Shown: piece by piece, positions 15,407 through 27,323 of the stretch | Position numbering within the stretch: position 1 is the first letter of the stretch | How the letters are laid out: every line of letters begins with the position of its first letter | IMG/VR virus record: IMGVR_UViG_3300028388_002415 | Coordinates: 1-31,347 of that record | Length of the DNA: 31,347 bases | Source of the DNA: a virus | Strand: one strand, 5' to 3' | Program-made: the position numbers and the translations under genes | The notes under the pieces: generated by a model | What the model saw: the letters and a program-made list of their open reading frames with translations, nothing else | Databases searched by the model: none | Told to the model about the DNA's origin: nothing

Positions 15407-15408
15407 TT

Positions 15409-15447
15409 ATGACAGCTAAAGAATTATTAAATACAATGATCAACTGA
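15409..15447 (+). CDS. Micro-ORF or gene remnant
   Basis: A 12-codon frame (MTAKELLNTMIN) begins 3 nt after the SLOG gene in a proper A-rich context. The wording MTAKELL resembles the beginning of ordinary small phage proteins. It may be the stub of a truncated gene or a leader peptide before the lipoprotein gene. Evidence is thin. Confidence 0.25.
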   Translation: MTAKELLNTMIN

Positions 15448-15476
15448 GGTCGAAATTAAATAATCAATAATAACAA

Positions 15477-15899: not shown

Positions 15900-15907
15900 T
15901 CCCTAAT

Positions 15908-16090
15908 ATGGAGACTAAAGAATTATTTGTAAATGAAAATATTTATATTACTTACATTTCAGAAATGGATATAGTAAGCATTACGTTATATGAAAATAAT
16001 GACGAAGATGCCGAACAGATAATCTTTTTAGAGAAGGAAAGATTCAAAGAACTACAAAAAGCTATTGGGAATATTTCCCTAATGAAATAG
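15908..16090 (+). CDS. Small acidic protein
   Basis: 60 aa (METKELFVNENIYITYISEM...), beta strands followed by a C-terminal helix (EKERFKELQKAIGNISLMK). I choose the ATG at 15908 rather than 15884 because the upstream one overlaps the lipoprotein gene and adds a non-conserved-looking MESKLIPN. A strong terminator follows 18 nt after the stop. It resembles other single-domain beta-beta-helix proteins in this region (for example 17030-17224), perhaps distant relatives. Confidence 0.55.
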   Translation: METKELFVNENIYITYISEMDIVSITLYENNDEDAEQIIFLEKERFKELQKAIGNISLMK

Positions 16091-16107
16091 TTGCATATGT
16101 TTATATG

Positions 16108-16137
16108 GAGGATGTCGTACTAGGCATCCTCTTTTTT
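16108..16137 (+). terminator. Rho-independent terminator
   Basis: Perfect 7-bp stem GAGGATG/CATCCTC with a 10-nt loop, followed by six T. It ends the SLOG-lipoprotein transcript. Confidence 0.85.
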
Positions 16138-16148
16138 AAATTAAAACA

Positions 16149-16340
16149 ATGAATAAACTAACAGAAGAAGAAAAAAGTATGATTAAATACTTTTGGAAAG
16201 AAAAAGGTAATCTTGAAAGGTATGTAGAATATCCAGAAGTAATAAAAAAACTTAGAGAAGAAGGTTCAGTTATTCCACATTTATGGAATAATTATATACT
16301 AGCAAGAGATTTACTAGATATGGCAATTGATGACTTATGA
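16149..16340 (+). CDS. Small helical protein
   Basis: 63 aa, charged and helical (LTEEEKSMIKYFWKEKGNLE). The stop overlaps the next start (ATGA), so the pair is translationally coupled. Unknown function. Confidence 0.5.
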   Translation: MNKLTEEEKSMIKYFWKEKGNLERYVEYPEVIKKLREEGSVIPHLWNNYILARDLLDMAIDDL

Positions 16341-16594
16341 AATATAAAATTTATTTAATAAAAAGAGAAAAATTAATTAAGAATTCTTTCCTTAAGCATA
16401 ACCATGAGTTTGATTATTTAAATCATGCGTTAGAGTATATAAGAACAGCTATTAAGGATGATACTATCGAAGGCAATGTTTTTCTTCGTCATCAGATATT
16501 AATACAGTGCTATGACGAGGGGCGAGAGATGCCTGAAGTAGTAGCTATTATAGATAAAGGAACTGAATTAATTCTTCATCAAATAAAATATTAG
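16337..16594 (+). CDS. Small unknown protein
   Basis: 85 aa, coupled to the gene before by a 4-base overlap. Beta-helix-helix-beta impression: KYKIYLIKREKLIKNSF, HALEYIRTAIKDDTIEG, VAIIDKGTELILHQIKY. No motif recognised. Confidence 0.5.
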   Translation: MKYKIYLIKREKLIKNSFLKHNHEFDYLNHALEYIRTAIKDDTIEGNVFLRHQILIQCYDEGREMPEVVAIIDKGTELILHQIKY

Positions 16595-16596
16595 TA

Positions 16597-16710
16597 ATGA
16601 AACCTTATAAAGGAAAAATACGGAAAGCAAAATACATGAAGCATATTAAAGCTTATTGGACATTACTTAAAAACATTAGACGTAATAACTTTAAATCAAG
16701 AAAACCATAA
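16597..16710 (+). CDS. Very small basic protein
   Basis: 37 aa (begins MKPYKGKIRKAKYMKHIKAY, ends FKSRKP), with about a third Lys/Arg and no acidic residue. It starts 2 nt after the previous stop and ends 5 nt before the next start, fitting a real gene in the run. It may bind nucleic acid, judged by charge only. Confidence 0.45.
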   Translation: MKPYKGKIRKAKYMKHIKAYWTLLKNIRRNNFKSRKP

Positions 16711-16715
16711 CTATC

Positions 16716-17027
16716 ATGTATAAAGAATTAAAAGTAATAACCACTACTGACTATATAGAAACAGTAGAGAAATATTTAGAAAAGAGAGAAGAAGTTAATG
16801 TATTGGTTTATCATTCATATGATAAATCTGTATGTGTAGGTAAGATTAATTACGATGGATATAGAGGAATTGAATTTAGATTTAATGCTTCTACTGTATC
16901 TCAATTAAGTAACACATCTGCTATTATTTTACCTAACGCTTTTATATTAATAAAAGACGGTGATTGTGATCATCCTATTAAACAACGATTTTTAGAGTTT
17001 ATGCTCTATCCATATTTAAAGTATTAA
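16716..17027 (+). CDS. Unknown protein, paralogue of 17208-17588
   Basis: 103 aa. It aligns by eye with the gene two places downstream: TDYIETVEKYLEKREEVNVLVYH here against TNYITEVANILEKEEEHNVLIYT there, then SNTSAIILPNAFILIKDG against LNTMAILLPYNKAILIDG. The shared pattern is an N-terminal helix, a beta strand and a C-terminal hydrophobic strand pair. The function is unknown. Confidence 0.55.
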   Translation: MYKELKVITTTDYIETVEKYLEKREEVNVLVYHSYDKSVCVGKINYDGYRGIEFRFNASTVSQLSNTSAIILPNAFILIKDGDCDHPIKQRFLEFMLYPYLKY

Positions 17028-17029
17028 TA

Positions 17030-17224
17030 ATGAAAAAGAACAGTAAAGCATTAGCGTGGGAAACAGAGAACTACCTTATACAGGTATTCTTTGAAAAAGG
17101 ATTTGTAGAGCTATCAATATTAGATCATTCAAATGATCAAGTAAGTTCTACATATATAACAGATAAAGATTTTAAACAAATGATTAAGGATATTAATACT
17201 GCATATAATGAAAATACTCAATAG
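17030..17224 (+). CDS. Small unknown protein
   Basis: 64 aa; three beta strands and a C-terminal helix (WETENYLIQVFFEKGFVELS, then FKQMIKDINTAYNENTQ). It lies between two paralogues and overlaps the second by 17 nt. Confidence 0.5.
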   Translation: MKKNSKALAWETENYLIQVFFEKGFVELSILDHSNDQVSSTYITDKDFKQMIKDINTAYNENTQ

Positions 17225-17588
17225 TACTAACTATATAACAGAAGTTGCTAATATTTTAGAGAAAGAAGAAGAACATAATGTACTTATTTATACAAAAGAT
17301 GGTTTAAAAATAGTAAAACCAAAAGTTGAAATAATAGAAGTACCGTTATCTCAACCCGTTAGAAGTGTTGATTTCTATATAGGAGATAAAAAAACTTACA
17401 ATCTTTTAAATACTATGGCAATTTTATTGCCTTATAATAAAGCAATACTAATTGACGGGAGACGTACAACGGAAAGTGTTCTTATTAGATTGATACATGG
17501 TATGAATGAATCAGATAATATTAATAGAATTATAGAGGAAACTATTACCGAAGATGAATATGAGCATCGTTTTAGTAATAGACATTAA
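17208..17588 (+). CDS. Unknown protein, paralogue of 16716-17027
   Basis: 126 aa, longer than its paralogue by an acidic C-terminal tail (IIEETITEDEYEHRFSNRH). The ATG overlaps the previous gene. The stop codon lies inside the 5' arm of the terminator that closes the operon. Confidence 0.55.
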   Translation: MKILNSTNYITEVANILEKEEEHNVLIYTKDGLKIVKPKVEIIEVPLSQPVRSVDFYIGDKKTYNLLNTMAILLPYNKAILIDGRRTTESVLIRLIHGMNESDNINRIIEETITEDEYEHRFSNRH

Positions 17589-17626
17589 ATAGGGTGTCTA
17601 ATTTATAAAATTTATTTAATGTCTTT
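17581..17626 (+). terminator. Terminator-like hairpin at the end of the 16149-17588 operon
   Basis: Perfect 11-bp stem GACATTAAATA/TATTTAATGTC with a 21-nt AT-rich loop, followed by CTTT-type sequence. The T tract is short. The arms include the last two codons and stop of the upstream gene. The loop starts with GGGTGT, so the motif TAGGGTGT occurs here as in several later RNA elements. Confidence 0.55.
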
Positions 17627-17734
17627 AAGTGTTTGGGTTGTATGATGAATAAGCGGTTAATATGTGGATTAATTTGTTTTTTATAGAAATTGAGTAAGGG
17701 TTATAAGCGTCTGGGTTACACCATCAACTATAAT

Positions 17735-17745
17735 TCGCTTCGCTC
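17735..17745 (+). repeat. TCGCTTCGCTC repeat, copy followed by start-less coding sequence
   Basis: Exact copy of the 11-nt repeat, followed by ATTTTTTTTCTACCCCCC. The 240 nt between 17589 and 17828 hold no gene I can support upstream of this repeat. Coding-like sequence begins soon after it. Confidence 0.7.
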
Positions 17746-17828
17746 ATTTTTTTTCTACCCCCCGGTCAATTAGCGCACTAGAGGACTACGACAGTGCGCA
17801 CTCAGGAGACTTTATCGTAGGTAGTCCG

Positions 17829-17972
17829 ATGTCACGAGTGAGTGTTATCATCAAAGGAGAAATGAGTATCCTTGACGATAAGATTGACTCTTTCATGCGC
17901 GAGGAGTTCATCAGAGACTATGACGAATGCCCTGAAGACAGCGTACATAAGTTCGAGGACGATCCGTTCTAA
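17829..17972 (+). CDS. Small acidic protein with SSB-like C-terminal tail
   Basis: 47 aa from ATG 17829 (MSRVSVIIKGEMSILDDKI...), ending VHKFEDDPF. The acidic run before a terminal Pro-Phe copies the C-terminal tail of bacterial SSB (DDDIPF in E. coli, usually DDLPF-type in Bacteroidota). Many replication and repair proteins dock on that tail. Good coding sequence in the same frame extends upstream to about 17763 (SALEDYDSAHSGDFIVGSP) without any ATG, so the N-terminus is uncertain. Either an unusual start is used or the 5' end was lost. Codons are G/C-richer than in the genes before 17588. A terminator follows 8 nt after the stop. Confidence 0.55.
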   Translation: MSRVSVIIKGEMSILDDKIDSFMREEFIRDYDECPEDSVHKFEDDPF

Positions 17973-17980
17973 TCATCAGA

Positions 17981-18018
17981 AACGCTAGTGATCATCTTGG
18001 TCACTAGCGTTTCCTTTC
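17981..18018 (+). terminator. Terminator hairpin
   Basis: Perfect 11-bp stem AACGCTAGTGA/TCACTAGCGTT with a 9-nt loop and a T/C-rich tail (TCCTTTCTC). It separates the two SSB-tail genes. Confidence 0.65.
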
Positions 18019-18047
18019 TCTATACGCTTGAACTAAATACCAATACA

Positions 18048-18242
18048 ATGGATGAAGACGCAATGGACATGTATATGTCCGACCTACATCAGTTAGATGG
18101 TCATCGCTACTACGAAGATTCTGTCTTCGAGATGGACATGGAAACGGAAATGGACTACATCGATAGCGTAGTCGAGTCCCACCTTCCCGAGAACGGCAAT
18201 GACCTACCGTTTGAACAAACCCCGTTCGACCTGCCATTCTAA
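18048..18242 (+). CDS. Small acidic protein with doubled SSB-like C-terminal tail
   Basis: 64 aa from ATG 18048. A GTG-started extension to 17988 would run through the preceding terminator and is rejected. The body is strongly acidic and Met/Asp-rich (MDEDAMDMYMSDLHQLDGHR). The end reads NDLPFEQTPFDLPF: two DLPF units, the last at the very C-terminus, as in Bacteroidota-type SSB tails. No OB-fold domain is present, so this is a tail without SSB. It is flanked by terminators on both sides, so it is a single-gene unit, and its codons are G/C-rich. A likely role is binding host or phage proteins that recognise the SSB tail; this is inference. Confidence 0.65.
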   Translation: MDEDAMDMYMSDLHQLDGHRYYEDSVFEMDMETEMDYIDSVVESHLPENGNDLPFEQTPFDLPF

Positions 18243-18246
18243 ACAT

Positions 18247-18285
18247 AAAGAGCGTCAGTGACTACTCAATCGCTGACGCTCTTTT
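18247..18285 (+). terminator. Strong rho-independent terminator
   Basis: 12-bp perfect stem AAAGAGCGTCAG/CTGACGCTCTTT with a 14-nt loop and TTTT tail, directly after the SSB-tail gene. Confidence 0.88.
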
Positions 18286-18298
18286 ACAACTAAACATC

Positions 18299-18475
18299 AC
18301 TGCAATATTGCAGTAGGGTGTAAATCTGCACTTACCCGTAAAAGTGCAGACGGTGGTCTTCATCCCGCCGTAAACGGAAAACAGATGAAGCTCTTTGGAG
18401 TAGTGGTGATCATCAGTGGTTACCACTACTTCTTATTACTTTTAAATAAAAAGAATAGTAATCCCGACTATTCTT
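18299..18475 (+). ncRNA. Structured leader or ncRNA with an H-type pseudoknot
   Basis: Five consecutive elements read by eye. They are the palindrome TGCAATATTGCA (18301-18312); hairpin TCTGCACTT/AAGTGCAGA (18325-18333 with 18342-18350); an H-type pseudoknot at 18351-18390; hairpin AGTAGTGGT/ACCACTACT (18399-18407 with 18422-18430); and hairpin AAGAATAGT/ACTATTCTT (18451-18459 with 18467-18475). In the pseudoknot CGGTGG pairs with CCGCCG, and the loop CTTCATC pairs with GATGAAG. The gene after it probably starts at 18517. The element could regulate that gene in cis or be processed as a small RNA. No known riboswitch was recognised. Confidence 0.5.
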
Positions 18476-18516
18476 CTCTAACCAGAGTTTATAGTGTTAT
18501 AGCAAGGGAAGTAGTT

Positions 18517-18897
18517 ATGAATTCATTCAAATATGTTAATAACTATGCAGAGAAGTTCTCAACTGAGTTCAAAATCCTTTGGGATGTTGAGCCTATTATG
18601 GCTTGGAGTCCTAATCTCCGCGCCATGAAAAGCGATGTTCAGGAGATTGTCAACTATGTTTCGTTACTCCAGTTAAGCATTTCTAATTGGGCGACATTAA
18701 ACATGGCGGCACAAGAGTTGTGCAGCATGAGTATGAACGAAGAAGGGCTTCCCTCTTTTGAGGAATTCTACACCAGCATTTACGAAAGCGGTTTCTTAGA
18801 TGAAACCGAAGAAGAGTGTATGGAGTTTGGAATGCACATTAACTTCTTCAAAAATCAATATATCGGGTGCTCCAACAAAGGAGGGTTCACCCGATGA
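18517..18897 (+). CDS. Small helical protein after a structured leader
   Basis: 126 aa from ATG 18517 (MNSFKYVNNYAEKFSTEF...). The frame is open back to ATG 18385, but that start lies in the pseudoknot and would add a hydrophobic, hairpin-encoded stretch, so I prefer the internal start. The protein is all-helical with several Met and acidic residues (NMAAQELCSMSMNEEGLPSF, then ETEEECMEFGM). The last codons lie in a nested hairpin (TCGGGTG/CACCCGA around CTCC/GGAG, 18864-18895). The function is unknown. Confidence 0.6.
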   Translation: MNSFKYVNNYAEKFSTEFKILWDVEPIMAWSPNLRAMKSDVQEIVNYVSLLQLSISNWATLNMAAQELCSMSMNEEGLPSFEEFYTSIYESGFLDETEEECMEFGMHINFFKNQYIGCSNKGGFTR

Positions 18898-18903
18898 GAA
18901 ACA

Positions 18904-18945
18904 AAAGGCCAGCAATGACTACGGTTGTTGCTGGCTTTATTTTTA
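18904..18945 (+). terminator. Rho-independent terminator
   Basis: Stem GCCAGCAA/TTGCTGGC with flanking AAA/TTT pairs and a 12-nt loop, then TTTATTTTT. A G-free leader AACCACTAAATCA to the next ATG follows at once. Confidence 0.8.
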
Positions 18946-18965
18946 ACCACTAAATCAGCATTATC

Positions 18966-19310
18966 ATGACCATTGCAATCATTATGGAATACGCTCACAA
19001 CAAGGTGGGTGTTAAAACAATGGAAATAACTGAGCAAAATCTTCCGTTAGATGTTGCACCAAACATGGTGTGTAATAATTTAATTTCCATGCCGACAGGT
19101 CCAGTCTTTCTTGGGAAAAGCATTTCTCATCATTTCCCTAGTGACGTAATTGCTCTTCCAATTACTAAAGTTCAAAAACGGGCAATCGAGTCCGTATACA
19201 ATACACCTGTAAAGGAATTAGAGCCGGGTGAGTCCGAAGAATACTACTTTGAGTACGAAAGCGAAATTCGTGCGGAATCGGCTATAGCTCTTGCAAAGAG
19301 TTATATCTAA
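18966..19310 (+). CDS. Unknown small protein
   Basis: 114 aa. The N-terminus is MTIAIIMEYAHNKVG; an alternative ATG 18 codons in (MEITEQNLPLD) is possible. A beta-rich centre with Pro (PTGPVFLGKSISHHFPSDV) precedes an acidic segment (EPGESEEYYFEYESEIRAES) and a C-terminal helix. The transcript ends at the hairpin 19320-19358. No family recognised. Confidence 0.55.
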   Translation: MTIAIIMEYAHNKVGVKTMEITEQNLPLDVAPNMVCNNLISMPTGPVFLGKSISHHFPSDVIALPITKVQKRAIESVYNTPVKELEPGESEEYYFEYESEIRAESAIALAKSYI

Positions 19311-19319
19311 TAAAAGATA

Positions 19320-19358
19320 GAGCAAGCGACTTAATCAACTAGGTCGCTTCGCTCCTTT
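19320..19358 (+). terminator. Terminator hairpin whose 3' arm is the TCGCTTCGCTC repeat
   Basis: GAGC-A-AGCGAC pairs with GTCGCT-TC-GCTC, and CTTT follows. The repeat copy at 19344-19354 forms the 3' arm. This is the only copy where I see a long complementary partner just upstream. Confidence 0.6.
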
Positions 19359-19389
19359 AACTCTCAACACTACACTAAATCACAATATC

Positions 19390-19773
19390 ATGGCTCACAT
19401 CACAACAGAAGCCCTCATCCGCGAAAAAGGGGTAACTATCTTGTACAAGATTAACAAATGGACGTTTATGTACGCCTATCAAGATACCTGCGGCACAGTC
19501 GTAATTGTTGCCACTTTCAAAATGCCCAAATTTGCTGGGGGTGGAGAACAGCAGCGTGTCTACCCATTAGACATCTTTCCTGGATACAAAGATGCTTACG
19601 GTATCTACCTCAATCTAAAAGAGGAGTTTGACCAGTCTATTAAGGCTGATCGCATTGCCTACTACAAAAACAAACTAGCTAAGCTAGAAGGCAAAAAAGA
19701 GGAGGAAACCTTTGTAAACCCTGGACAGCGTCCTGACATCTTTGATTGGTCACAGGATAACCACATACAGTAA
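19390..19773 (+). CDS. Unknown conserved-looking protein, C-terminal GQRPD motif
   Basis: 127 aa, G/C-rich codons. Beta-rich N-terminal half (LYKINKWTFMYAYQDTCGTV), then a helix with a charged linker (YYKNKLAKLEGKKEEET) and the C-terminal peptide NPGQRPDIFDWSQDNHIQ. Just downstream, in a start-less frame, a second GQRPE-type C-terminal peptide occurs (19785-19877). This suggests a duplicated or exchanged C-terminus. The function is unknown. Confidence 0.6.
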   Translation: MAHITTEALIREKGVTILYKINKWTFMYAYQDTCGTVVIVATFKMPKFAGGGEQQRVYPLDIFPGYKDAYGIYLNLKEEFDQSIKADRIAYYKNKLAKLEGKKEEETFVNPGQRPDIFDWSQDNHIQ

Positions 19774-19784
19774 TTTCCTTATAA

Positions 19785-19877
19785 AGATATTTTTCACCAG
19801 TCCTAGGACAACGACCTGAACAAGTCTCTAAACTGTTTAACTTTAATGCAGCCAAAGACGGTCCAAAGCCCGTATAA
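19785..19877 (+). pseudogene. Start-less coding fragment with GQRPE motif
   Basis: Open frame between two stops, reading YFSPVLGQRPEQVSK, then LFNFNAAKDGPKPV and a stop. It has no ATG/GTG/TTG in place. It contains the same GQRP(D/E) motif as the C-terminus of the gene just before it. It looks like the left-over or alternative 3' end of a related gene. Confidence 0.4.
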
Positions 19878-19915
19878 ATGCAGATGGAAGTTTTCACCAC
19901 TAAAATCACACTACC

Positions 19916-20218
19916 ATGTTTGTTTCCGGCGTGTATGCCAACGTAAATCTGGAAGAGGAAACCATCAAGAGTTTCACTCTTCTTTCCACCCTAGAGGAGA
20001 ACTGTCTCTTACTCAATGCCTTCTCTGACTTTCAGAAGAAGGAAGACGGATCTACTAAGTACGTAGTTCGTTTTGCGTTAGGACATCCTTTTGAGGAGTC
20101 CATCCATGAGATTACTCCACAGCAAGCAAAAGAAATGTACCTTCTTCTTGCAGAGCAGGCAGAGCTTAAGATGGAGTCATACCAGCATTCAGCAAAACAT
20201 ATTGACATTAAACTTTAA
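19916..20218 (+). CDS. Small unknown protein
   Basis: 100 aa, G/C-rich codons. Beta-rich N-terminus (MFVSGVYANVNLEEETIKSF), Cys/Leu helix, and a final helix (TPQQAKEMYLLLAEQAELKM). The leader CACCACTAAAATCACACTACC matches the G-free leaders of the neighbouring genes. A 14-bp hairpin follows 8 nt after the stop. Confidence 0.6.
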   Translation: MFVSGVYANVNLEEETIKSFTLLSTLEENCLLLNAFSDFQKKEDGSTKYVVRFALGHPFEESIHEITPQQAKEMYLLLAEQAELKMESYQHSAKHIDIKL

Positions 20219-20225
20219 CAATAAT

Positions 20226-20261
20226 GTCACTAGCTAGTAAATACTAATACTAGCTAGTGAC
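20226..20261 (+). terminator. Perfect 14-bp hairpin
   Basis: GTCACTAGCTAGTA pairs with TACTAGCTAGTGAC over an 8-nt loop. No T tract follows (TAAATAAAC), so it may be an RNA end-protector or operator-like palindrome rather than a classic terminator. Confidence 0.6.
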
Positions 20262-20281
20262 TAAATAAACGTTCTGCGTTC

Positions 20282-20356
20282 TCGCTTCGCTCGTTTATTG
20301 CTAAATATTGCGCAAGCCGTCACACGTAGCTCTCACACTGCGTATTCGCTGCGCTC
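20282..20356 (+). repeat. Two copies of the TCGCTTCGCTC repeat (second with one change)
   Basis: Copies at 20282-20292 (TCGCTTCGCTC, then GTTTATT) and 20346-20356 (TCGCTGCGCTC, then ATTTATA). The first lies in a hairpin AATAAACG/CGTTTATT. The non-coding stretch 20219-21040 holds these repeats, a weak start-less coding-like piece (20393-20491, PRDVSKQELVTLKTNGFS) and the RNA elements described separately; I see no convincing gene in it. Confidence 0.6.
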
Positions 20357-20565
20357 ATTTATACCTAAAAACTACCAAGGATGAACACCTAATCCGTATC
20401 ATTCTTCTGGCATTCGTTCCCACGAGATGTCAGTAAACAGGAGCTGGTAACTCTAAAGACTAATGGTTTTTCTAAATGTACATTTAGATGAACTTCACTG
20501 GTCAGTTACAAACGGATTAATTTTAACCGTCCATCGTAAGAGAGGACGTCATTTATACTATAGTA

Positions 20566-20613
20566 ACTCTATCCTTTTAATTTCCCTACACAGGGATAGA
20601 GTGTTCAGTAGGG
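20566..20613 (+). ncRNA. Hairpin or pseudoknot element
   Basis: ACTCTATCC (20566-20574) pairs with GGATAGAGT (20594-20602). The loop has CCCTAC (20584-20589), which can pair with GTAGGG (20608-20613) downstream. The crossing loop is only 5 nt, so the pseudoknot may not form at the same time as the full stem. It ends in CAGTAGGGTGT, an 11-mer also present at 18311-18321. A further AAGAG/CTCTT hairpin follows. Confidence 0.4.
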
Positions 20614-20676
20614 TGTGTAAGAGCCTGACAAACTCTTATATATAACGTTAAGTCATTTCTTAATCAATTTTATAAA

Positions 20677-21018
20677 ATCCTATTCGGGACACTTCTATAC
20701 GTTAATCCGTATAGAGATCGAAGGATAGGCTAACCGTACATTTTAAGTTAATGTTATTGGTACACATTAATGGAGGTTAGAAAAGTCAGCAAAAAAGAGT
20801 AACATAGATGCAAGTCTATTGGTAAACTCTCGGGGAGAAGGTCCTATTCGTGGGACAGTTGTGGTAGAATCGACTGCTTACGTAGCCGAGATACTCTTTT
20901 ATAGGTGAGAAACCTGCTGATGATACCAGATTGCATAATAAGGCTAACGTGGCCTGGGGTATCTGTCAACCAACAATGACAGTGTGTAATCGAAAGCACG
21001 CCCTAAGCAATTAGGGTG
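20677..21018 (+). ncRNA. Large structured RNA candidate (about 340 nt)
   Basis: Consecutive helices cover the stretch. CCTAT/ATAGG encloses CTATACG/CGTATAG. CTAACC/GGTTAG (20730-20735, 20775-20780) encloses TTAATGT/ACATTAA. A long-range 9-bp helix AAAAGAGTA/TACTCTTTT (20793-20801, 20892-20900) encloses ATAGA/TCTAT, CTCGG/CCGAG and GTCC/GGAC. Then come GATACC/GGTATC, CTGTCA/TGACAG (20963-20968, 20977-20982) and CCCTAA-GCAA-TTAGGG (21001-21016). There is no coding frame through it. I compared it by memory with RNase P RNA, tmRNA and group I intron cores and found no convincing match. It may be a new phage RNA or a distant member of a known large-RNA class. Confidence 0.55.
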
Positions 21019-21040
21019 CTTAAACTAAACAATTACAACT

Positions 21041-21262
21041 ATGAAACTGCAAGGTGGAGTTATGAAGAGAGAGCGTCGCCGCCGAGCGATTTCGATCATT
21101 AATCGTCGAATGTCAACAATTGAATCTGCCGTCGAGAAAGAAGGCAAACAATATATCCCACACAGAGGGGAGTTTGGGCTCTCCAATAAAAAGGGATTGC
21201 CTTTACATGCATTACTCGAACGAGCAGTCCGAGAAATGAAAGCCGTAAGCTCTAAGATTTAA
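21041..21262 (+). CDS. Small basic protein after the large RNA element
   Basis: 73 aa. The N-terminus is very basic (KRERRRRAISIINRRMST). A second ATG at 21062 preceded by GGTGGAG could also serve. The middle holds GKQYIPHRGEFGLSNKKGLP and the end is a helix (LHALLERAVREMKAVSSKI). It could be an RNA- or DNA-binding protein. Its place directly downstream of a large structured RNA makes RNA binding an attractive guess, not shown. Confidence 0.55.
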   Translation: MKLQGGVMKRERRRRAISIINRRMSTIESAVEKEGKQYIPHRGEFGLSNKKGLPLHALLERAVREMKAVSSKI

Positions 21263-21268
21263 CTTATT

Positions 21269-21342
21269 AATAAGCATCAAGGTTACGCTTCTTAGCGATA
21301 AAAGGCCAAGAGTCTCTCTTGGAGCATTCCTGGTGCTTATTT
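21269..21342 (+). ncRNA. Three-way-junction RNA element
   Basis: Closing stem AATAAGCA (21269-21276) with TGCTTATT (21334-21341). Inside are two arms: CGCT-TCTT-AGCG and the perfect hairpin CCAAGAG-TCT-CTCTTGG (21306-21322). The 3' end runs into TTAAAA just before the tRNA-like gene. It could be the terminator of the basic-protein gene or a small RNA. Confidence 0.5.
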
Positions 21343-21349
21343 AAAATAC

Positions 21350-21440
21350 GGACCCATAGCTCAGTTGGTCAGAGCACTGCACAGTCTAAATACTGGTTAT
21401 ATAGCCGCAGGAGTCCCTGGTTCGAGTCCAGGTAGGTCCA
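21350..21440 (+). tRNA. tRNA-like gene with enlarged anticodon arm
   Basis: Acceptor GGACCCA/TAGGTCC (one C-A mismatch), D arm GCTC-AGTTGGTCA-GAGC, variable loop GAGTC, and T arm CCTGG-TTCGAGT-CCAGG are all standard. The body resembles Bacteroidota elongator Met/Ile(CAT)-type tRNA. The anticodon arm, however, is 34 nt (CTGC...GCAG) instead of 17 and can fold into two small hairpins, CAGT-CTAAAT-ACTG and GGTT-ATAT-AGCC. No ordinary 7-nt loop with U33 and an anticodon can be drawn. CCA is not encoded. It is a pseudo-tRNA, a tRNA with a 17-nt insertion, or a tRNA mimic. Confidence 0.65.
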
Positions 21441-21452
21441 CAATCAACCGGA

Positions 21453-21468
21453 TCGGCAGATATGCCGA
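21453..21468 (+). other. Tetraloop hairpin after the tRNA-like gene
   Basis: TCGGCA-GATA-TGCCGA, a perfect 6-bp hairpin 12 nt downstream of the tRNA-like 3' end. It may protect or define the tRNA-like 3' end. Confidence 0.5.
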
Positions 21469-21473
21469 ACATT

Positions 21474-21582
21474 ACACCAGTTAGAGAGTTGCGCGTAGGT
21501 CTTAGACTGTCTCAACTGCTCCATTGGCTTCAATGACTGATGGTGTAAAAGTTGCGTTATATACTCTCTACTGGTGTTTTTT
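21474..21582 (+). ncRNA. Three-way-junction RNA with T tract
   Basis: Long closing stem ACACCAGT-t-AGAGAG (21474-21488) with CTCTCT-ACTGGTGT (21564-21577), 14 bp with one bulge, followed by six T. Inside are AGTTG/CAACT and CCATTG-type hairpin CATTG-GCTT-CAATG. The architecture is like the element at 21269-21342. It ends as a terminator and the next gene's leader AACCACACAATCAACTAATC follows directly. Confidence 0.6.
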
Positions 21583-21602
21583 AACCACACAATCAACTAA
21601 TC

Positions 21603-21881
21603 ATGAGAATACTGACCAAAAAAGATAAGTTGTTCTTTGGAAAAAATAAGGGACGAACTGTTGAAGATGTGCTTAGAGAAACTCCTGGGTATCTTCGATG
21701 GGTTAACACTAATGTAGAGTTTTGTAGTTTTCCTGAAGACTTGATTTCAGAAATAATTGAAAAAGCATGCGAGGCTGATCGTGAAGCATACAAGTACAAC
21801 AGAACCTCTGATTATGATAACCATCCTATGTGGGACGATCATCGAGATTTTGGTACTATTATTGGAATCAACGGTTATTAA
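21603..21881 (+). CDS. ExoX C-terminal-like small protein
   Basis: 92 aa. Residues 10-35 read FFGKNKGRTVEDVLRETPGY then LRWV, the signature of the small domain found at the C-terminus of exonuclease X-type DnaQ proteins (GK.KG.....V....PGYL.W). In phages it occurs alone as here, without the DEDD exonuclease domain. It probably binds DNA or a partner protein; activity alone is not established. The tail is acidic/aromatic (NHPMWDDHRDFG). It begins after the T tract of the RNA element at 21474-21582. Confidence 0.7.
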   Translation: MRILTKKDKLFFGKNKGRTVEDVLRETPGYLRWVNTNVEFCSFPEDLISEIIEKACEADREAYKYNRTSDYDNHPMWDDHRDFGTIIGINGY

Positions 21882-21894
21882 AACTATAACCTAT

Positions 21895-21965
21895 ACTCCA
21901 TAGGTAATCTAATACTAATGCATTGGAGTCCTTTCTTGCTTAACCGCGTTAGGGTGCATTAGTAT
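21895..21965 (+). promoter_or_regulatory. Pseudoknotted leader of the 52-aa gene
   Basis: ATACTAATGCA (21912-21922) pairs perfectly with TGCATTAGTAT (21955-21965). ACTCCA (21895-21900) pairs with TGGAGT (21924-21929) inside the loop, giving an H-type pseudoknot. A small TAAC-CGC-GTTA hairpin lies in the remaining loop. The start codon at 21986 follows after 20 nt. Confidence 0.5.
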
Positions 21966-21985
21966 AACTTCATAATCAATCAACA

Positions 21986-22144
21986 ATGAAATCGATTCTT
22001 CCGCCAATTAATATGCACAATACTGACTTCTCTAACCTTGGATTACCTAGCTTAAAAGTCAACAGAAACCGAAAGAAATTCAACAAAACTAAAGCTCGAC
22101 TTAAAGCAAAACGTGCGCGTATTGCTCGTCGAGTAAACCGATAA
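21986..22144 (+). CDS. Very basic 52-aa protein
   Basis: The N-terminal half is ordinary (MKSILPPINMHNTDFSNLG). The C-terminal half is Lys/Arg-rich (NRNRKKFNKTKARLKAKRAR, then IARRVNR), a helix able to bind nucleic acid. The leader AATCAATCAACA fits the local start context. It lies between two structured RNA elements. Too short for family assignment. Confidence 0.55.
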   Translation: MKSILPPINMHNTDFSNLGLPSLKVNRNRKKFNKTKARLKAKRARIARRVNR

Positions 22145-22147
22145 TCC

Positions 22148-22246
22148 TTTAATCGTCTAAAGGATAGTTCATGATTATGATTTGGTGTTAATGATTATGT
22201 GGTAATTATGTAGGCAGCTTGACGACTATGGCTGCCTACTTTTTTT
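22148..22246 (+). terminator. Hairpin plus strong terminator
   Basis: A first hairpin TCCTTTA/TAAAGGA (22146-22165) is followed by the terminator GTAGGCAGC/GCTGCCTAC (22210-22218, 22231-22239) and seven T. The two loops contain complementary TCGTC and GACGA, so a kissing interaction is possible. Confidence 0.85.
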
Positions 22247-22267
22247 AACCTAAAAAATACCAACGAC

Positions 22268-22648
22268 ATGGGAGAACATGCTGAAGAAATGACAAATGAA
22301 TTGATGTTTGCTCAGGATCGATACTCTATTGAACCTGAGCCACCTATTGTACTGTATCATACCACTAAGGATGGATACAAAATTCGCTTTGAAGACCTGA
22401 CAGATAACCATCTTCGTAACATTATTGCTCTAAAAAAGCGTAATGCTAAAAAAGGTATTACTGTAGTCGAAGGAGGTGGATCATCTGCTGAAGAGATGTG
22501 GGGAGATGTAGACGTTCTATATGGATTAGATGCTTTAATACATAATCTATGTACTGCTTATCTAATAGAATGGGTTCGTCGTTTTCCCAACGATACCGAA
22601 GCTAAGGAACTAATTACTAAGATTGAAAACCATCTTGATTGTTTCTGA
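22268..22648 (+). CDS. Conserved phage protein of unknown function
   Basis: 126 aa. The central YHTTKDGYKIRFEDLTDNHL followed by RNIIALKKRNAKKG is a pattern I associate with a widespread small phage family (T.dG..i...dl.d.HL.ni). The C-terminal half is helical with a conserved-looking W (TAYLIEWVRRFPNDTEAKEL). No enzymatic motif. It is a stand-alone unit between a terminator and a repeat copy. Confidence 0.6.
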   Translation: MGEHAEEMTNELMFAQDRYSIEPEPPIVLYHTTKDGYKIRFEDLTDNHLRNIIALKKRNAKKGITVVEGGGSSAEEMWGDVDVLYGLDALIHNLCTAYLIEWVRRFPNDTEAKELITKIENHLDCF

Positions 22649-22660
22649 TTCACTACTTTT

Positions 22661-22671
22661 TCGCTTCGCTC
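22661..22671 (+). repeat. TCGCTTCGCTC repeat
   Basis: Exact copy, followed by ATTTTCT, 12 nt after the stop of the 126-aa gene. It takes the place where a terminator 3' arm and T tract would be expected, but no complementary 5' arm is seen. Confidence 0.7.
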
Positions 22672-22704
22672 ATTTTCTCCTAAGCACTACATAAATCAAT
22701 CGTT

Positions 22705-22905
22705 ATGGAGCCACTGGAGCCGCTGTACTGGACGCTCAGAGAGTGCGAGTACAGAGCATTACATAACCCAGAAGAGTTCGATGCGTACTCCTTCTGGCAC
22801 TTCTACCTGCACTATTTTGTGCGTGGTAGACTTCACGCATTCAAGACGCAAAGAGCAATAATGCGATACATACGTAATTATGGCAACTTCGCTATACTTG
22901 CGTAA
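22705..22905 (+). CDS. Small aromatic-rich protein, frame continues past the stop
   Basis: 66 aa, rich in Tyr, Trp, Arg and His (LYWTLRECEYRALHNPEEF, then YSFWHFYLHYFVRGRLHAF). G/C-rich codons (CTG, TAC, TTC). It stops at TAA 22903-22905. The repeat follows at once and the same frame stays coding for 84 more codons. The natural product may therefore be either 66 aa or, with readthrough or bypass, about 151 aa. Confidence 0.55.
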   Translation: MEPLEPLYWTLRECEYRALHNPEEFDAYSFWHFYLHYFVRGRLHAFKTQRAIMRYIRNYGNFAILA

Positions 22906-22916
22906 TCGCTTCGCTC
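22906..22916 (+). repeat. TCGCTTCGCTC repeat directly after a stop codon
   Basis: Exact copy, followed by TTTTATT, placed at TAA|TCGCTTCGCTC between two in-frame coding halves. Confidence 0.75.
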
Positions 22917-23160
22917 TTTTATTCAAGAGGACCGCAACACCGGAGAGATTATCCTCTCCAACGGTTCCAATGAGGAGCCGCTGTACAACTTCACTGCTGA
23001 AAAGCTTTCCTTGTGGAAGGTCGAACAGATTCGTAAAGAAGCCGGACTTAGCGTCAATGCTAAGATCGTTTCCGCTTACGAAGATGCTACGGAAACTACC
23101 GAAGAAGGCAGCAAGGAAGAGGACAGCGTACCGGCAGAAGATGCCAACGCTAAGTTTTAA
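22906..23160 (+). pseudogene. Start-less in-frame continuation (84 codons) or readthrough extension
   Basis: Reading on in the frame of the 66-aa gene after its TAA gives SLRSF (the repeat), IQEDRNTGEIILSNGSNEE, PLYNFTAEKLSLWKVEQIR, KEAGLSVNAKIVSAYEDAT, an acidic Ser/Glu linker and DANAKF, then TAA. The composition and G/C-ending codons are clearly those of a protein gene. There is no ATG in this frame; the only weak candidate is a TTG within LSLW. Either it is the 3' part of a broken gene, or it is expressed by readthrough or bypass of the TAA. Confidence 0.55.
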
Positions 23161-23174
23161 GACGTAATGTCTAC

Positions 23175-23212
23175 AGTGGTGGGGTAGTTTAACGGCTGCC
23201 CTGCCACTTTTT
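23175..23212 (+). terminator. Strong terminator with G-U pairs
   Basis: 13-bp stem AGTGGTGGGGTAG/CTGCCCTGCCACT (three G-U pairs) with an 8-nt loop and TTTTT. It ends the transcript covering the start-less frame, so the region is transcribed as a unit. Confidence 0.85.
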
Positions 23213-23253
23213 AACTTACCAAACGTTACCTTTTAACTCAGTAAACTGAGTAA

Positions 23254-23515
23254 TTTGTTTAAAAGAATTGAATCATGCTAACCACACAAGAAGCATGGGA
23301 TAAACTCCCACAGAATTTTAAAGATAAAGTTATATTGACCTACATAAACACAGGTATTACACCTGCTGCTTTAATCATAGGAATGTATGTATTGAACCAT
23401 ACCGATGGTTCAGCGGAGATAGTAAAAACAGAACTAGAGTTGATTCTTATTAATGAAACTCAAGCTAATTAGATACTTGAGTCTAAGAATTGATTCGTTT
23501 GTTTAAGAGAATTGA
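23254..23515 (+). repeat. Direct repeats flanking the 65-aa gene
   Basis: TTTGTTTAAAAGAATTGA (23254-23271), just before the ATG, recurs as TTTGTTTAAGAGAATTGA (23498-23515), 26 nt after the stop, with 17 of 18 bases the same. The second copy precedes no gene on the plus strand. Confidence 0.6.
23275..23472 (+). CDS. Small helical protein
   Basis: 65 aa (MLTTQEAWDKLPQNFKDKVI...), an N-terminal helix, a hydrophobic middle (TPAALIIGMYVLNHTDG) and a C-terminal helix. A hairpin ACTCAG-TAAA-CTGAGT lies in its leader (23237-23252). Flanked by direct repeats. The function is unknown; a weak membrane association is possible. Confidence 0.5.
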   Translation: MLTTQEAWDKLPQNFKDKVILTYINTGITPAALIIGMYVLNHTDGSAEIVKTELELILINETQAN

Positions 23516-23529
23516 TCGCTACTGCGTTT

Positions 23530-23540
23530 TCGCTTCGCTC
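23530..23540 (+). repeat. TCGCTTCGCTC repeat at the 3' end of the RepL-like gene
   Basis: Exact copy, followed by TCTTTTT, 10 nt before the stop codon of the leftward RepL-like gene. The orientation is the same as all other exact copies. Confidence 0.7.
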
Positions 23541-23549
23541 TCTTTTTAC

Positions 23550-24104
23550 CTAATGTTGTTTCATTATATCTCTTATTCGTTCAGGAGTGAAGAAATCATC
23601 TGGATCAATCTCTTTACCTGAATCTATAAGTTTATCATATTCTTTGCATGTTTTAAAGAAATTGATAACATTACCTTTAAGAATCTTAAAAGGATTAATT
23701 CTGTATTTATTACGACCTTTTATTCTAGCTAATATATTTAGCTCAATAAATTTATTAATAGCTTTTTGATAAGTTTTACGATCCATCATGTGTTCATAAT
23801 CTGAATACTGTATTGTTGGACGTAATTCATACTCGGAAAGATTATCAATAATTTTAATCAATAGTGCAGGTTGATGTGCAGAATCCATCTTTAGAAATTC
23901 ATCAGATAAGTCTCTATAGATATTAAGGTAGCGTCTACCTACAATATTTTCAGTATACTCAATTCCTTTATGAGTGAGTTTACCTGAATCATCATATTGA
24001 TTAGGATGCTTTCTTTTAATCTTGAAGTCGTAATCAGACATTGGTCGATCAATTTCTATACTAACGCTAAAGTCTTTAAGCAAGTTTTTGTAACTTGTTT
24101 CCAT
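23550..24104 (-). CDS. RepL-like winged-helix replication or regulatory protein
   Basis: 184 aa, the only leftward gene in the right half. Residues about 105-145 (KTYQKAINKFIELNILARIK, GRNKYRINPFKILKGNVINF) show helix, turn, recognition helix and wing ending in INPF..LKGN, the arrangement of RepL plasmid initiators and related winged-helix proteins. The first 100 residues are charged and mixed alpha/beta. RepL-like genes are reported in some crAss-like phages, where plasmid-like replication has been suggested. Here it faces a non-coding region of about 560 nt that could contain its target. A winged-helix transcription factor is the main alternative. Confidence 0.65.
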   Translation of the reverse strand: METSYKNLLKDFSVSIEIDRPMSDYDFKIKRKHPNQYDDSGKLTHKGIEYTENIVGRRYLNIYRDLSDEFLKMDSAHQPALLIKIIDNLSEYELRPTIQYSDYEHMMDRKTYQKAINKFIELNILARIKGRNKYRINPFKILKGNVINFFKTCKEYDKLIDSGKEIDPDDFFTPERIRDIMKQH

Positions 24105-24135
24105 AATATAATTTATTTATTAAATATGTTTTTTA

Positions 24136-24172
24136 GCAGGAGTGATCAATGGGATTACTCCTGCCTTTGTTT
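24136..24172 (+). terminator. Terminator-like hairpin upstream of the RepL-like gene
   Basis: GCAGGAGT (24136-24143) pairs with ACTCCTGC (24157-24164), 13-nt loop, tail CTTTGTTTT on the plus strand. It could stop rightward transcripts antisense to the RepL-like gene, or act in its leader. Confidence 0.55.
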
Positions 24173-24564
24173 TATCCAACATGTAGGATATAATAAAAGT
24201 TTTTTACATTAAAATAGGTAATGTTTTATCCATACCCACTACTATTACAAAATGGTCAAAAAATGAGTGTAAGTAATTGATTCTTAATAAGTTACAAAGG
24301 TTAGTTAAAGTAAATTCTAGGAGTATAATATATATTATAGGGACTGATTTTGATGAGTTAGTTGAGTTAATTCATAGGACTCAAACCCCCTTAAACAATC
24401 AATAATCAAACCTTTAACTCCAATTATTTCCCTACACACATTAACTATAAAATTAATTCAACTGTAACTGACACTGCTTTTAACCCTAATTCTATCATTA
24501 TAACTACTAATAACACTACTTAATCTAATCTTTTGCTTTAATTAACTACGGCAGTATTAAAGAA

Positions 24565-24632
24565 GCCTATGCATGTAATGTCAGTAGCCTTTATGAATAA
24601 CACAAACTGCTGACGTATTTATAGGCGTTATT
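24565..24632 (+). promoter_or_regulatory. Pseudoknotted leader of the 24668 operon
   Basis: GCCTAT/ATAGGC (24565-24570, 24621-24626) encloses GTCAG/CTGAC (24580-24584, 24610-24614). The loop carries AATAAC (24596-24601), which pairs with GTTATT (24627-24632) right after the outer stem. The start codon lies 35 nt downstream. Confidence 0.45.
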
Positions 24633-24667
24633 AATCTTTATGCTACCGAAGTATTAAATAAATAATT

Positions 24668-24922
24668 ATGAACATCAAAAAATCAGCTAAAAGAATCGAA
24701 TGGATAGAGTTAGACAAAAACAATCTACCTAAACTAGAAGATTCGGATTATGGCTATATAGGTATTCAACTAGACCCTGAATCTTCCAATTACAAAGAGA
24801 AGCGATATGGGAGTTGGTTTGATATAGTAGATGATGAAATCAATCTAGTCTACAGTTATCATTATTTCAAATGCACTCATTATATACCTGTAAATTCACT
24901 TCCACATCCTTTAATTGAATAA
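24668..24922 (+). CDS. Small unknown protein
   Basis: 84 aa. Beta-rich with many Tyr and Asp (DSDYGYIGIQLDPESSNY, INLVYSYHYFKCTHYIPVN). First gene of the right-hand operon. Not recognised. Confidence 0.55.
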   Translation: MNIKKSAKRIEWIELDKNNLPKLEDSDYGYIGIQLDPESSNYKEKRYGSWFDIVDDEINLVYSYHYFKCTHYIPVNSLPHPLIE

Positions 24923-24961
24923 AGAAAAGTCGGACATTCTTTTTATTAAATCACAAATACT

Positions 24962-25111
24962 ATGAATAAAAAGGAGAAAATTCAAGAATTAGAAGAATTA
25001 TTACAAGATGCAGAAGCTTCACTCAATCAACTGGGAATTCTAGCAGATATGTATAATTTTATCAAAACAGATGATAATAAAACATATCACAAAACACTCC
25101 ATTATGTTTAA
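24962..25111 (+). CDS. Small coiled-coil protein
   Basis: 49 aa (MNKKEKIQELEELLQDAEAS...), one amphipathic helix with heptads followed by a short basic tail. The final codons overlap the next start (ATGTTTAA), so the two are coupled. Confidence 0.5.
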   Translation: MNKKEKIQELEELLQDAEASLNQLGILADMYNFIKTDDNKTYHKTLHYV

Positions 25112-25520
25112 ATATTTTATTAAAGAAATGGAACAATATCCTAGTTCTATTTCATCTCACTTTAAAATGACCAAAGGATGGGGTAATGGCTATGTTATTA
25201 TTCCAAAAGATCATTGGTTACATGGAATTCATTATAATGATGTATCTCTACACATAGAAGTACATGGAGGACTTACATTCTCTAATTACACTAAAGTATT
25301 AAAACCAAAGACTAAGGATCATTCTTGGTGTTTTGGGTTCGATACAGCTCATTTTGGAGACTCTCTAAAGAATTGGCCTAAAGAAAAGGTTTTGAAAGAG
25401 ACTGAAGCATTAGCTCGTCAGTTATGGAATCTAAAGCTTTGGGAAAAAGAAACATCAGAATACGATTCAAACATTCATTGTGAAGTCTGCGCTAATACAC
25501 AAGATGCATGTTTTTGCTAA
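25104..25520 (+). CDS. Conserved phage protein with HGGLTFS and GFDTAH motifs
   Basis: 138 aa from ATG 25104, which overlaps the preceding stop; the in-frame ATG at 25071 would lie deep in the upstream gene. Ordered motifs GWGNGYVIIPKDHW, LHIEVHGGLTFS, WCFGFDTAHFGDSL and an end helix (KETEALARQLWNL) define a small phage family I recognise but whose function is not known to me. The C-terminus adds CEVCANTQDACFC, a four-cysteine set able to bind one zinc. Confidence 0.65.
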   Translation: MFKYFIKEMEQYPSSISSHFKMTKGWGNGYVIIPKDHWLHGIHYNDVSLHIEVHGGLTFSNYTKVLKPKTKDHSWCFGFDTAHFGDSLKNWPKEKVLKETEALARQLWNLKLWEKETSEYDSNIHCEVCANTQDACFC

Positions 25521-25532
25521 ACAATAAATACT

Positions 25533-25787
25533 ATGACTAGAGCAGATTATTTCTTTTTAGCTGGACCAGCCATTTTATTCCTATTATGGCTGTTTTATCC
25601 TTGGTATATTATATTAACCAAAGGATTTGATTACTTAATGGATAATGACGAAACCTTTACAGAATACATTGCTAATATATCCTTTATTATACAAGTAGTA
25701 ATAGCTGTAGTAGGACTTGGCAGTGGTATTCTTTTAGTAGTTGAATATATAGGTAGATTTATCTATCACTGGATTAATTCTTTTTAA
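25533..25787 (+). CDS. Small membrane protein, two transmembrane segments
   Basis: 84 aa. Segments at residues about 8-28 (LAGPAILFLLWLFYPWYI) and 48-72 (ISFIIQVVIAVVGLGSGILL) are long and hydrophobic enough to cross the membrane; the loop between them is acidic. Phage inner-membrane proteins of this size often alter host envelope functions. No specific family. Confidence 0.6.
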   Translation: MTRADYFFLAGPAILFLLWLFYPWYIILTKGFDYLMDNDETFTEYIANISFIIQVVIAVVGLGSGILLVVEYIGRFIYHWINSF

Positions 25788-25797
25788 CAACTCAATC

Positions 25798-26052
25798 ATG
25801 GAAATTTCAATCAATGATGATTATGCATGTGCATCTACATCAGAAGATGATCCTTTTAAATTGACTTTTTATTACGGATATGAATACATTTATCCACCAA
25901 CTAAAGAATGGTGCTTTATGGTATGGAAAGAAGGTCAGCTAGTAAAAAAATTAACAACTAGTGATTTACAGCAAGCCTGTAAGAACAATCTTGATTCACC
26001 GGAAAAGTTTCTTTTACAAGGAATGATGATGTATTTCCTACAATCGTTATAA
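25798..26052 (+). CDS. Small unknown protein
   Basis: 84 aa. Beta-rich aromatic middle (KLTFYYGYEYIYPPTKEW, FMVWKEGQLVKKL) and a helical end. It starts 10 nt after the membrane protein gene and ends 3 nt before the next. Confidence 0.5.
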   Translation: MEISINDDYACASTSEDDPFKLTFYYGYEYIYPPTKEWCFMVWKEGQLVKKLTTSDLQQACKNNLDSPEKFLLQGMMMYFLQSL

Positions 26053-26055
26053 ACT

Positions 26056-26241
26056 ATGAAACAGTCTGAATTAATCAAAGAACTAAACAAAGTTTTTGAT
26101 AAACTTAGCGTAAAAGAACAACTTAAAATACTTACGGAAATGTATATCTTTACTAAAGAAGAAGAGAAAGATATTTCTGATGAAGTAGTTCAAAAATCCA
26201 AAGAACGTATCCGTAAGAAACTCTTCGGAAGTTCTAAATAA
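26056..26241 (+). CDS. Small charged helical protein
   Basis: 61 aa, nearly all helix and highly charged (LIKELNKVFDKLSVKEQLKI, KSKERIRKKLFGSSK). A possible coiled-coil partner of a neighbour. Confidence 0.5.
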   Translation: MKQSELIKELNKVFDKLSVKEQLKILTEMYIFTKEEEKDISDEVVQKSKERIRKKLFGSSK

Positions 26242-26263
26242 TTAATTAATTAAATCTAAGACA

Positions 26264-26446
26264 ATGAAATCTTCAACAGTTCTAGGTATTATAACATTTG
26301 CAATTATTTTACTTGTTGGAAGTGTTTACATTACCCAACTAACATGGAATTATCTTTTTCCTTCCATCTTAGAAGGAAATATTACATTAACACAAGCATT
26401 TCTTTTACTTGTATTAGGTAGACTATTAACCTATTCAAGTAAATAA
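26264..26446 (+). CDS. Small membrane protein
   Basis: 60 aa. One clear transmembrane segment at residues 6-25 (LGIITFAIILLVGSVYITQL) and a second weaker one at 43-56 (TQAFLLLVLGRLL). Function unknown. Confidence 0.55.
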   Translation: MKSSTVLGIITFAIILLVGSVYITQLTWNYLFPSILEGNITLTQAFLLLVLGRLLTYSSK

Positions 26447-26469
26447 TTAATCAATTAAACGCTACAGCA

Positions 26470-27246: not shown

Positions 27247-27252
27247 AAATAT

Positions 27253-27310
27253 AGAGAGTCGGGGAAACATTGTCATTATAAGCGATGGGGGCATCCCTGG
27301 CTCTCTTTTT
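27253..27310 (+). terminator. Multi-helix terminator
   Basis: GAGAGTC/GGCTCTC closes a loop with GGG/CCC and CATTG/CGATG helices; TTTTT follows. Confidence 0.7.
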
Positions 27311-27323
27311 AAAATAATTTAAT

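Follow-up and report, generated by a model that had tools for sequence, protein, structure and literature searches.

What is the role of a gene-poor, RNA-rich stretch among the early genes of a phage? The question is raised by a crAss-like phage fragment of 31,347 bases, IMG/VR virus record IMGVR_UViG_3300028388_002415 (hereafter the window, that is, the whole stretch of DNA that was analyzed). The minus strand of the window encodes, within positions 1-12 kilobases (kb), the crAss-like capsid protein (PF23898, E 2.8e-27) and the terminase (phrog_6681), and the plus strand carries small early-type genes from 15 kb onward. Among the latter lies an island of structured RNAs that includes a twister-type ribozyme and a tRNA-like RNA. 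Such an island had been proposed in a preliminary description of the sequence; the main claim stands, but the extent does not, the RNA-rich core being limited to 17.6-23.5 kb, with a minus-strand gene at 23.55-24.1 kb. The concentration of non-coding RNA is supported by covariation of the ribozyme, by the predicted non-decoding character of the tRNA-like RNA and by a likewise gene-poor, RNA-bearing head of the early strand in six relatives. These relatives were gathered by terminase alignment; the closest named one is Cellulophaga phage phi14:2 (28% identity), and terminase relatives from IMG/VR reach 41-43%. Searches with single proteins revealed no close relatives of the window, and the island DNA matched nothing in phage records in either near or distant searches.

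The island stands out both in gene density and in folding. Its non-coding fraction is 0.396 (17589-23549), compared with 0.053 (14969-17588) and 0.045 (24668-30691) in the flanks. Against dinucleotide shuffles, the mean folding z-score of sliding windows of 120 nucleotides (nt) on the plus (gene) strand is -1.55 in the island, where 28% of them are at z < -2; it is -0.93 at 24.7-31.3 kb, and the late region has a mean of -0.63. For intergenic windows, the means are -1.85 in the island and -0.87 in the flanks (one-sided p = 0.006, an optimistic value given that the windows overlap). Island coding windows, with a mean z of -1.35, also fold somewhat better than the flanks, so that part of the excess lies outside the intergenic RNA. 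The flanks are gene-packed, as originally described, but not free of structure: strong terminator-type structures occur at 28233-28401 (z -4.4) and 30692-30930 (z -4.6).

Strong pairing had been attributed to almost every intergenic stretch of the island, and 7 of the 9 pieces of at least 90 nt indeed show z from -2.4 to -9.8: 18247-18384 (-9.8), 20219-20462 (-7.0), 22145-22267 (-4.7), 23168-23274 (-4.2), 20646-21040 (-3.6), 21882-21985 (-3.1) and 21263-21602 (-2.4). The other two, 17589-17828 (z +1.6) and 19774-19915 (z +0.1), have no excess minimum free energy, a measure that does not score pseudoknots; the first runs into a pseudoknot at 17.77 kb and the second holds the ribozyme. The presence of pseudoknots is borne out in four elements, where crossing helices are matched by few or none of 200 dinucleotide shuffles: 17773-17827 (0/200), 22153-22239 (0/200), 21882-21980 (1/200) and 21472-21570 (5/200). 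The several terminators initially noticed are likewise real, with 25 terminator-like sites at 14.9-31.3 kb against 7.3 expected, and so is the large multi-helix element, a 395-nt RNA at 20646-21040 (-108.5 kcal/mol, z -3.25 to -3.6) that none of 100 shuffles equals in stability and that matches no Rfam family. All recognized elements are on the coding (plus) strand, between single genes.

Could the island consist mostly of ordinary terminators and leaders of separate small genes, with a higher G+C content, one ribozyme and a decayed tRNA? Terminator hairpins do supply much of the folding excess, and both the better folding of the coding windows and the G+C content at third codon positions (GC3), 0.395 in island open reading frames (ORFs) versus 0.199 in other early ORFs, are in line with this explanation. 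Nevertheless, we consider it quite unlikely: G+C content alone does not account for the excess because the shuffles preserve composition, the pseudoknots exceed the shuffles, a tRNA in decay would not be seen in five phages, each time with a perfect T arm, and gene-poor regions recur at this place in relatives. The high GC3 may mark highly expressed early genes, given that in three relatives (L135, L092 and L009) the gene with the highest GC3 is at or near the head of the same locus.

Among the elements of the window, the ribozyme is the best conserved. A full-length match to twister P1 (RF03160, model positions 1-68; cmscan, 55.3 bits, E 1.3e-10) covers 19840-19891, with the consensus core and the P1-P2-P4 arrangement present over the full model. 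Among 53 terminase relatives and named phages, RF03160 matches are found in four, namely, the window, G019, G031 (two copies) and G044, with scores of 39-55 bits and P3 short or missing; in the three relatives, the ribozyme is on the strand opposite the terminase, about 5-10 kb beyond it (in G019, assuming that the contig ends join). In a hand alignment of these five copies, 69 of the 70 base-pair cells hold standard pairs; the count leaves out the T2 pseudoknot, which is too short and too conserved for covariation here. Every pair of P1, P4 and T1 varies yet stays paired, except for one G019 cell, whereas P2 is invariant. The T1 pseudoknot, which joins L4 with the 3' strand, is CCA/TGG in the window and CAC/GTG or TAC/GTA in relatives. 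Of 120 ways to re-pair the strands (mean 49.4), the true pairing alone attains 69. Absence of covariation in relatives, named in the preliminary description as a sign against the island, does not hold for the ribozyme. Covariation was examined for the ribozyme alone, the other elements of the window having yielded no homologues. A strict descriptor recovers the Rfam copies, adds one in L009 and a doubtful one in L038, and finds no match in 2.08 Mb of shuffled sequence.

The same fold is widespread. Scanning IMG/VR with a degenerate pattern, which fixed P2 and much of the core and left P1 and positions 2 and 3 of T1 free, yielded at least 119 stretches (L168-L247), with two or three copies in several contigs. 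Taken together with the other loci, there are at least 122 distinct copies. Among the 122 listed, 362 of 366 T1 cells are paired, compared with at most 309 in shuffles, and so are 396 of 488 P1 cells, compared with at most 256. By the terminase model, most of the listed carriers are not crAss-like (5 of 50 match). Twister P1 is thus common in viral contigs well beyond the crAss-like phages.

The position of the ribozyme hints at a possible function. In the window, 24 nt separate its end from the ATG of ORF 19916-20218, placing the start codon at +25; the corresponding distances are 25 nt in G019, 26 nt in the first G031 copy and 25 nt in G044. Among the 122 copies listed, 38% lie 20-30 nt before a start codon, versus 11% of random intergenic positions at the same loci. 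Spacing of 25-26 nt points to cis-acting processing of mRNA. The cleavage site of twister ribozymes is known from biochemistry, and the cut in the window is predicted, by analogy, at U19844/A19845; the downstream message would then begin with the folded ribozyme.

We tentatively favor, with a little less than even confidence, the explanation that the RNAs at 17.6-23.5 kb mainly punctuate the early transcripts in cis, giving separately ended single-gene messages. The ribozyme would cut the mRNA just before a gene, leaving its folded body, with a 5'-OH, directly upstream of the start codon and a 2',3'-cyclic phosphate at the end of the upstream message. Host tRNA-processing enzymes (RNase P or Z) would excise the tRNA-like RNA, whereas terminators, some capped by kissing loops or pseudoknots, would end the other units and protect their 3' ends. 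The outcome would be a series of stabilized single-gene messages and released small RNAs. Punctuation is supported by the location of the elements between genes on the coding strand, by the covariation and spacing of the ribozyme, by the excess of terminator-like sites, by the acceptor and T arms retained in the tRNA-like RNA and by the gene-poor early head in six relatives. Several observations weigh against it. The ribozyme match is below the RF03160 gathering score of 67.2 bits, which is why we call it twister-type; the second copy in G031 has no start codon close by; just one ribozyme was found in about 6 kb and, accordingly, it is unable to separate all the genes; and several elements, such as those at 20646-21040 and 18290-18392, exceed the size that punctuation calls for and may be independent RNAs. 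The original suggestion of a set of non-coding RNAs or cis-regulators acting together holds only with respect to the concentration of elements; the spacing of the ribozyme favors cis processing of mRNA over one trans-acting set. A further proposed hallmark, G-free leaders special to the island, did not survive comparison: other early genes have similar G-free runs before the ATG.

The tRNA-like gene noticed at the outset is genuine. The RNA at 21350-21440 matches RF00005 with 48.6 bits (threshold 29), although ARAGORN makes no call there, and retains the acceptor stem (6 of 7 pairs), the D arm and the T arm (5 of 5). A 4-bp stem with a branched insert of 26 nt takes the place of the anticodon arm. 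Similar RNAs, with long inserts or altered arms, are present in G010 (two), G044, G067 and G053. A canonical anticodon arm (5 bp, 7-nt loop, U33) is in place in none of the six RNAs, the window copy and its five counterparts, compared with 5 of 5 phage tRNAs that served as controls; hence, the tRNA-like RNA should not decode. Processing of tRNA ends depends on the acceptor and T arms. A predicted three-way junction (21263-21349) lies directly 5' of the tRNA-like RNA, and 21441-21583, a long hairpin with a crossing helix (5/200) and a T tract, is probably the 3' end of the same transcript; given these two neighbors, 21263-21583 looks like one RNA gene in the predicted fold. A minihelix-like RNA that consists of an acceptor stem and a T arm only, as judged by eye, occurs in G010 (L135 14642-14683).

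A tRNA with an intron in the anticodon loop, spliced to a working tRNA, appears highly improbable. The insert does sit at the usual position of tRNA introns, and the G044 copy is able to form a 5-bp anticodon stem; however, the bases that flank the insert in the window, in the first G010 copy and in G067 give no 5-bp stem with U33, the G053 loop is only 5 nt long, the inserts (roughly 20-76 nt) are far below the size of group I introns, and none of the intron families in Rfam gives a match. For most of the copies, the flanking bases and the scan led us to reject the intron.

According to the preliminary description, this layout departs from that of an ordinary phage early region. This may be true of phages generally, but among crAss-like phages all six relatives that were examined share the layout. 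In G031, G044, G019, G010, phi14:2 and G040, genes are sparse at the head of the early strand, with about 24-48% non-coding sequence per 4 kb and a far lower fraction in most of each genome; some other bins are also high, many of them at points where a very long gene extends past the end of a fetched piece. A phrog_15656 gene is near the gene-poor region in the window, G031 and phi14:2. Kinds of RNA recur at the early-strand head as well: twister in G031, G044 and G019, a pistol ribozyme in G040 (L138 214-290, 56.6 bits, above gathering), and tRNA-like RNAs in G010 and G044. Transfer-messenger RNAs (tmRNAs) are encoded near this head in phi14:2, G019, G031 and G044; RF00023 matches occur in 14 of 34 records, 4 of them over the cut-off, and the window has none.

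Alternatively, some of the RNAs could act in trans on the host, for example, by mimicking tRNA and tying up tRNA-binding enzymes or tRNA-cutting defenses. This would apply to the tRNA-like RNAs, to the 395-nt RNA and to the RNA bounded by terminators at 18.25-18.43 kb. This main rival to punctuation is possible, chiefly for the tRNA-like RNAs, even if somewhat unlikely for the set. The non-decoding tRNA-like RNAs recur in five phages with differing inserts, and relatives carry tmRNAs near this place. Moreover, a mostly intergenic stretch of 561 nt, which includes a twister-like core, is 86.6% identical between G010 and L009, whereas L009 has no match to any G010 island protein, as expected were the RNA itself under selection. 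Conversely, conservation in the window is highest for a cis-acting ribozyme, which keeps a fixed distance from the start codon, and an nhmmer search with every window element against 2.1 Mb of relatives recovered nothing beyond the ribozyme, ordinary tRNAs and two hits at chance level, and thus gave no relatives for the other RNAs of the window.

A broader scenario, which we regard as rather doubtful, is that an early locus is reserved for RNA in crAss-like phages; its individual RNAs would be exchanged over time, but their kinds would recur: leader ribozymes 25 nt before starts, tRNA mimics that do not decode, tmRNAs bearing long tags and large RNAs of no known class. In this scenario, host translation or tRNA-based defenses would be the targets in trans of the tRNA mimics.

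Several features of the relatives are of interest in their own right. The tmRNA genes are located at NC_021806.1 4031-4502 (L003; unannotated in this phi14:2 record), L091 4834-5209, L092 12157-12711 and L093 ~6341-6730 (minus strand). In 4 of 4, one frame passes through the usual tag-end hairpin to LAMVA or LALVA and a stop codon, with synonymous codon changes, and this continuation suggests an unusually long tag of roughly 35-40 residues. In G010 (L135), a promoter-like sequence, CTTATATAATGGATATTTC.TTTTGA, occurs in six copies (7643, 7998, 8240, 8530, 8894 and 9292), some 25-50 nt upstream of the start codon in each of a series of consecutive small early genes. A family of leaders starting with GGACACNAGTTTCTTT precedes different genes in L135 (10219, 11045 and 11465) and in L009 (minus strand; 16354 and 17017) and likely forms a closing stem with AAAGTTTTA near the start codon. 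In G031 (L092 8050-9653), about 900 nt without genes are followed by a GIY-YIG homing endonuclease ORF, perhaps a mobile intron.

The remaining elements of the island, all on the plus strand, are hairpins and pseudoknots adjacent to its small genes. The first is an H-type pseudoknot at 17773-17827 (GCGCACT/AGTGCGC crossing GGACTAC/GTAGTCC; score -29.1 versus -20.1 in shuffles), the 3' end of which is 34 nt before the ATG of the first island gene, ORF 17862-17972. This gene is followed by a terminator-like hairpin with a 16-pair stem (17979-18013). The segment 18247-18432, which precedes ORF 18517-18897, comprises a terminator, a structured, pseudoknotted RNA and a second terminator (18397-18432), the plan of an attenuator; its crossing helices by themselves are reached by 13 of 200 shuffles. 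Terminator-like hairpins also lie 3' of ORF 18517-18897 (18905-18938, 15-pair stem) and of ORF 18966-19310 (19319-19359; z -6.3 for the 120-nt window at 19281), the latter with a copy of TCGCTTCGCTC as its 3' arm. A perfect 14-bp hairpin (20226-20261), in a piece that also holds repeats, follows ORF 19916-20218. The 3' untranslated region of ORF 21603-21881 contains a hairpin and a 12-bp stem (21882-21965), and the low shuffle count of its crossing helices is mostly owing to the long stem. Downstream of ORF 21986-22144, a hairpin and a terminator (22145-22246) have loops able to pair with each other (TCGTC/GACGA). The last element is a terminator-like hairpin with a 15-pair stem at 23175-23212. 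At permissive thresholds, Rfam gave nothing credible for the remaining elements: matches to Lnt, Plastid-ycf2 and MIR6145 are chance or tRNA-derived. A hammerhead was rejected by eye, the single CUGAUGA (20917) lacking the following GAAA context.

A repeat, TCGCT(T/G)CGCTC with a T-rich tract, is present at 17735, 19344, 20282, 20346, 22661, 22906 and 23530, always on the plus strand and after ORFs, with an extra copy in a late gene (about 7214); it was not seen in relatives. The GCGAAGC within the TCGCTTCGCTC repeats led us to consider a template-strand DNA-hairpin promoter for a virion RNA polymerase, a candidate weakened by the confinement of the repeat to the window among the sequences searched, the location of the 19344 copy within a terminator and the copy in a late gene. 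The heptamer TAGGGTG occurs on the plus strand at 17590, 18314, 20609, 21012 and 21950, all intergenic or gene-end positions of the island, and nowhere else on that strand. With regard to proteins, ORFs 17862-17972 and 18048-18242 encode small acidic products with the C-termini FEDDPF and FDLPF, which resemble the C-terminal tail of the bacterial single-stranded DNA-binding protein; the first early protein of L009 ends in DLGF. Small proteins with a YpsA/SLOG match (14969-15406; PF06908, E 7e-7) and an ExoX-like C-terminal motif (21603-21881; PF20600, E 1.2e-6) are also encoded. A protein-like frame at 22903-23167 (QEDRNTGEIILSNGSNEEPLYNF...) has no ATG, GTG or TTG start and opens directly after a stop codon and a TCGCTTCGCTC repeat.

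Twister ribozymes are not known to have a clear biological role. A ribozyme at a fixed distance before phage start codons, a position likewise preferred among its more than one hundred relatives in viral contigs, offers a concrete job that can be tested, namely, to define the 5' end of a phage mRNA. Its location near the early-strand head, beside tRNA mimics and tmRNAs, suggests RNA devices used early in infection by crAss-like phages, a major group of viruses of Bacteroidota. In the literature searched, we found no report of phage twisters or crAss-like tmRNAs, although such reports may still exist, nor of non-decoding tRNA-like RNAs or a recurrent RNA-rich early locus.

Compared with known systems, the ribozyme adds a further example of an established fold, here found in a particular phage context. 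It shares with twister P1 (RF03160) the core bases, P1, P2, P4, the T1 pseudoknot and a full-length match, and differs in that the phage copies score under the gathering threshold, have a short or missing P3 and are sited just before a phage start codon. The tRNA-like RNA has the acceptor, D and T arms of tRNA (RF00005) but no canonical anticodon arm. Phage phi14:2 (NC_021806.1), like the window, carries the terminase and phrog_15656 on opposite strands and a gene-poor early head; unlike the window, it has a tmRNA in this region, and its early region has neither a twister nor a tRNA match. Phage phi14:2, whose region is comparable, is in culture on Cellulophaga baltica. The Rfam families of hepatitis delta virus (HDV)-like ribozymes have no match in the window, in a search that included no descriptor specific for theta. 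Among published systems, the nearest precedent is provided by the theta (HDV-like) ribozymes, small self-cleaving RNAs of gut phages of Bacteroidota that are found beside tRNAs and have been proposed to function in RNA processing (PMC10879173). Both are small ribozyme classes in phages of Bacteroidota, cleavage being predicted in the window, but the folds differ, and theta cuts at the 3' ends of tRNAs (PMC10879173), whereas the window ribozyme precedes the start codon of an mRNA.

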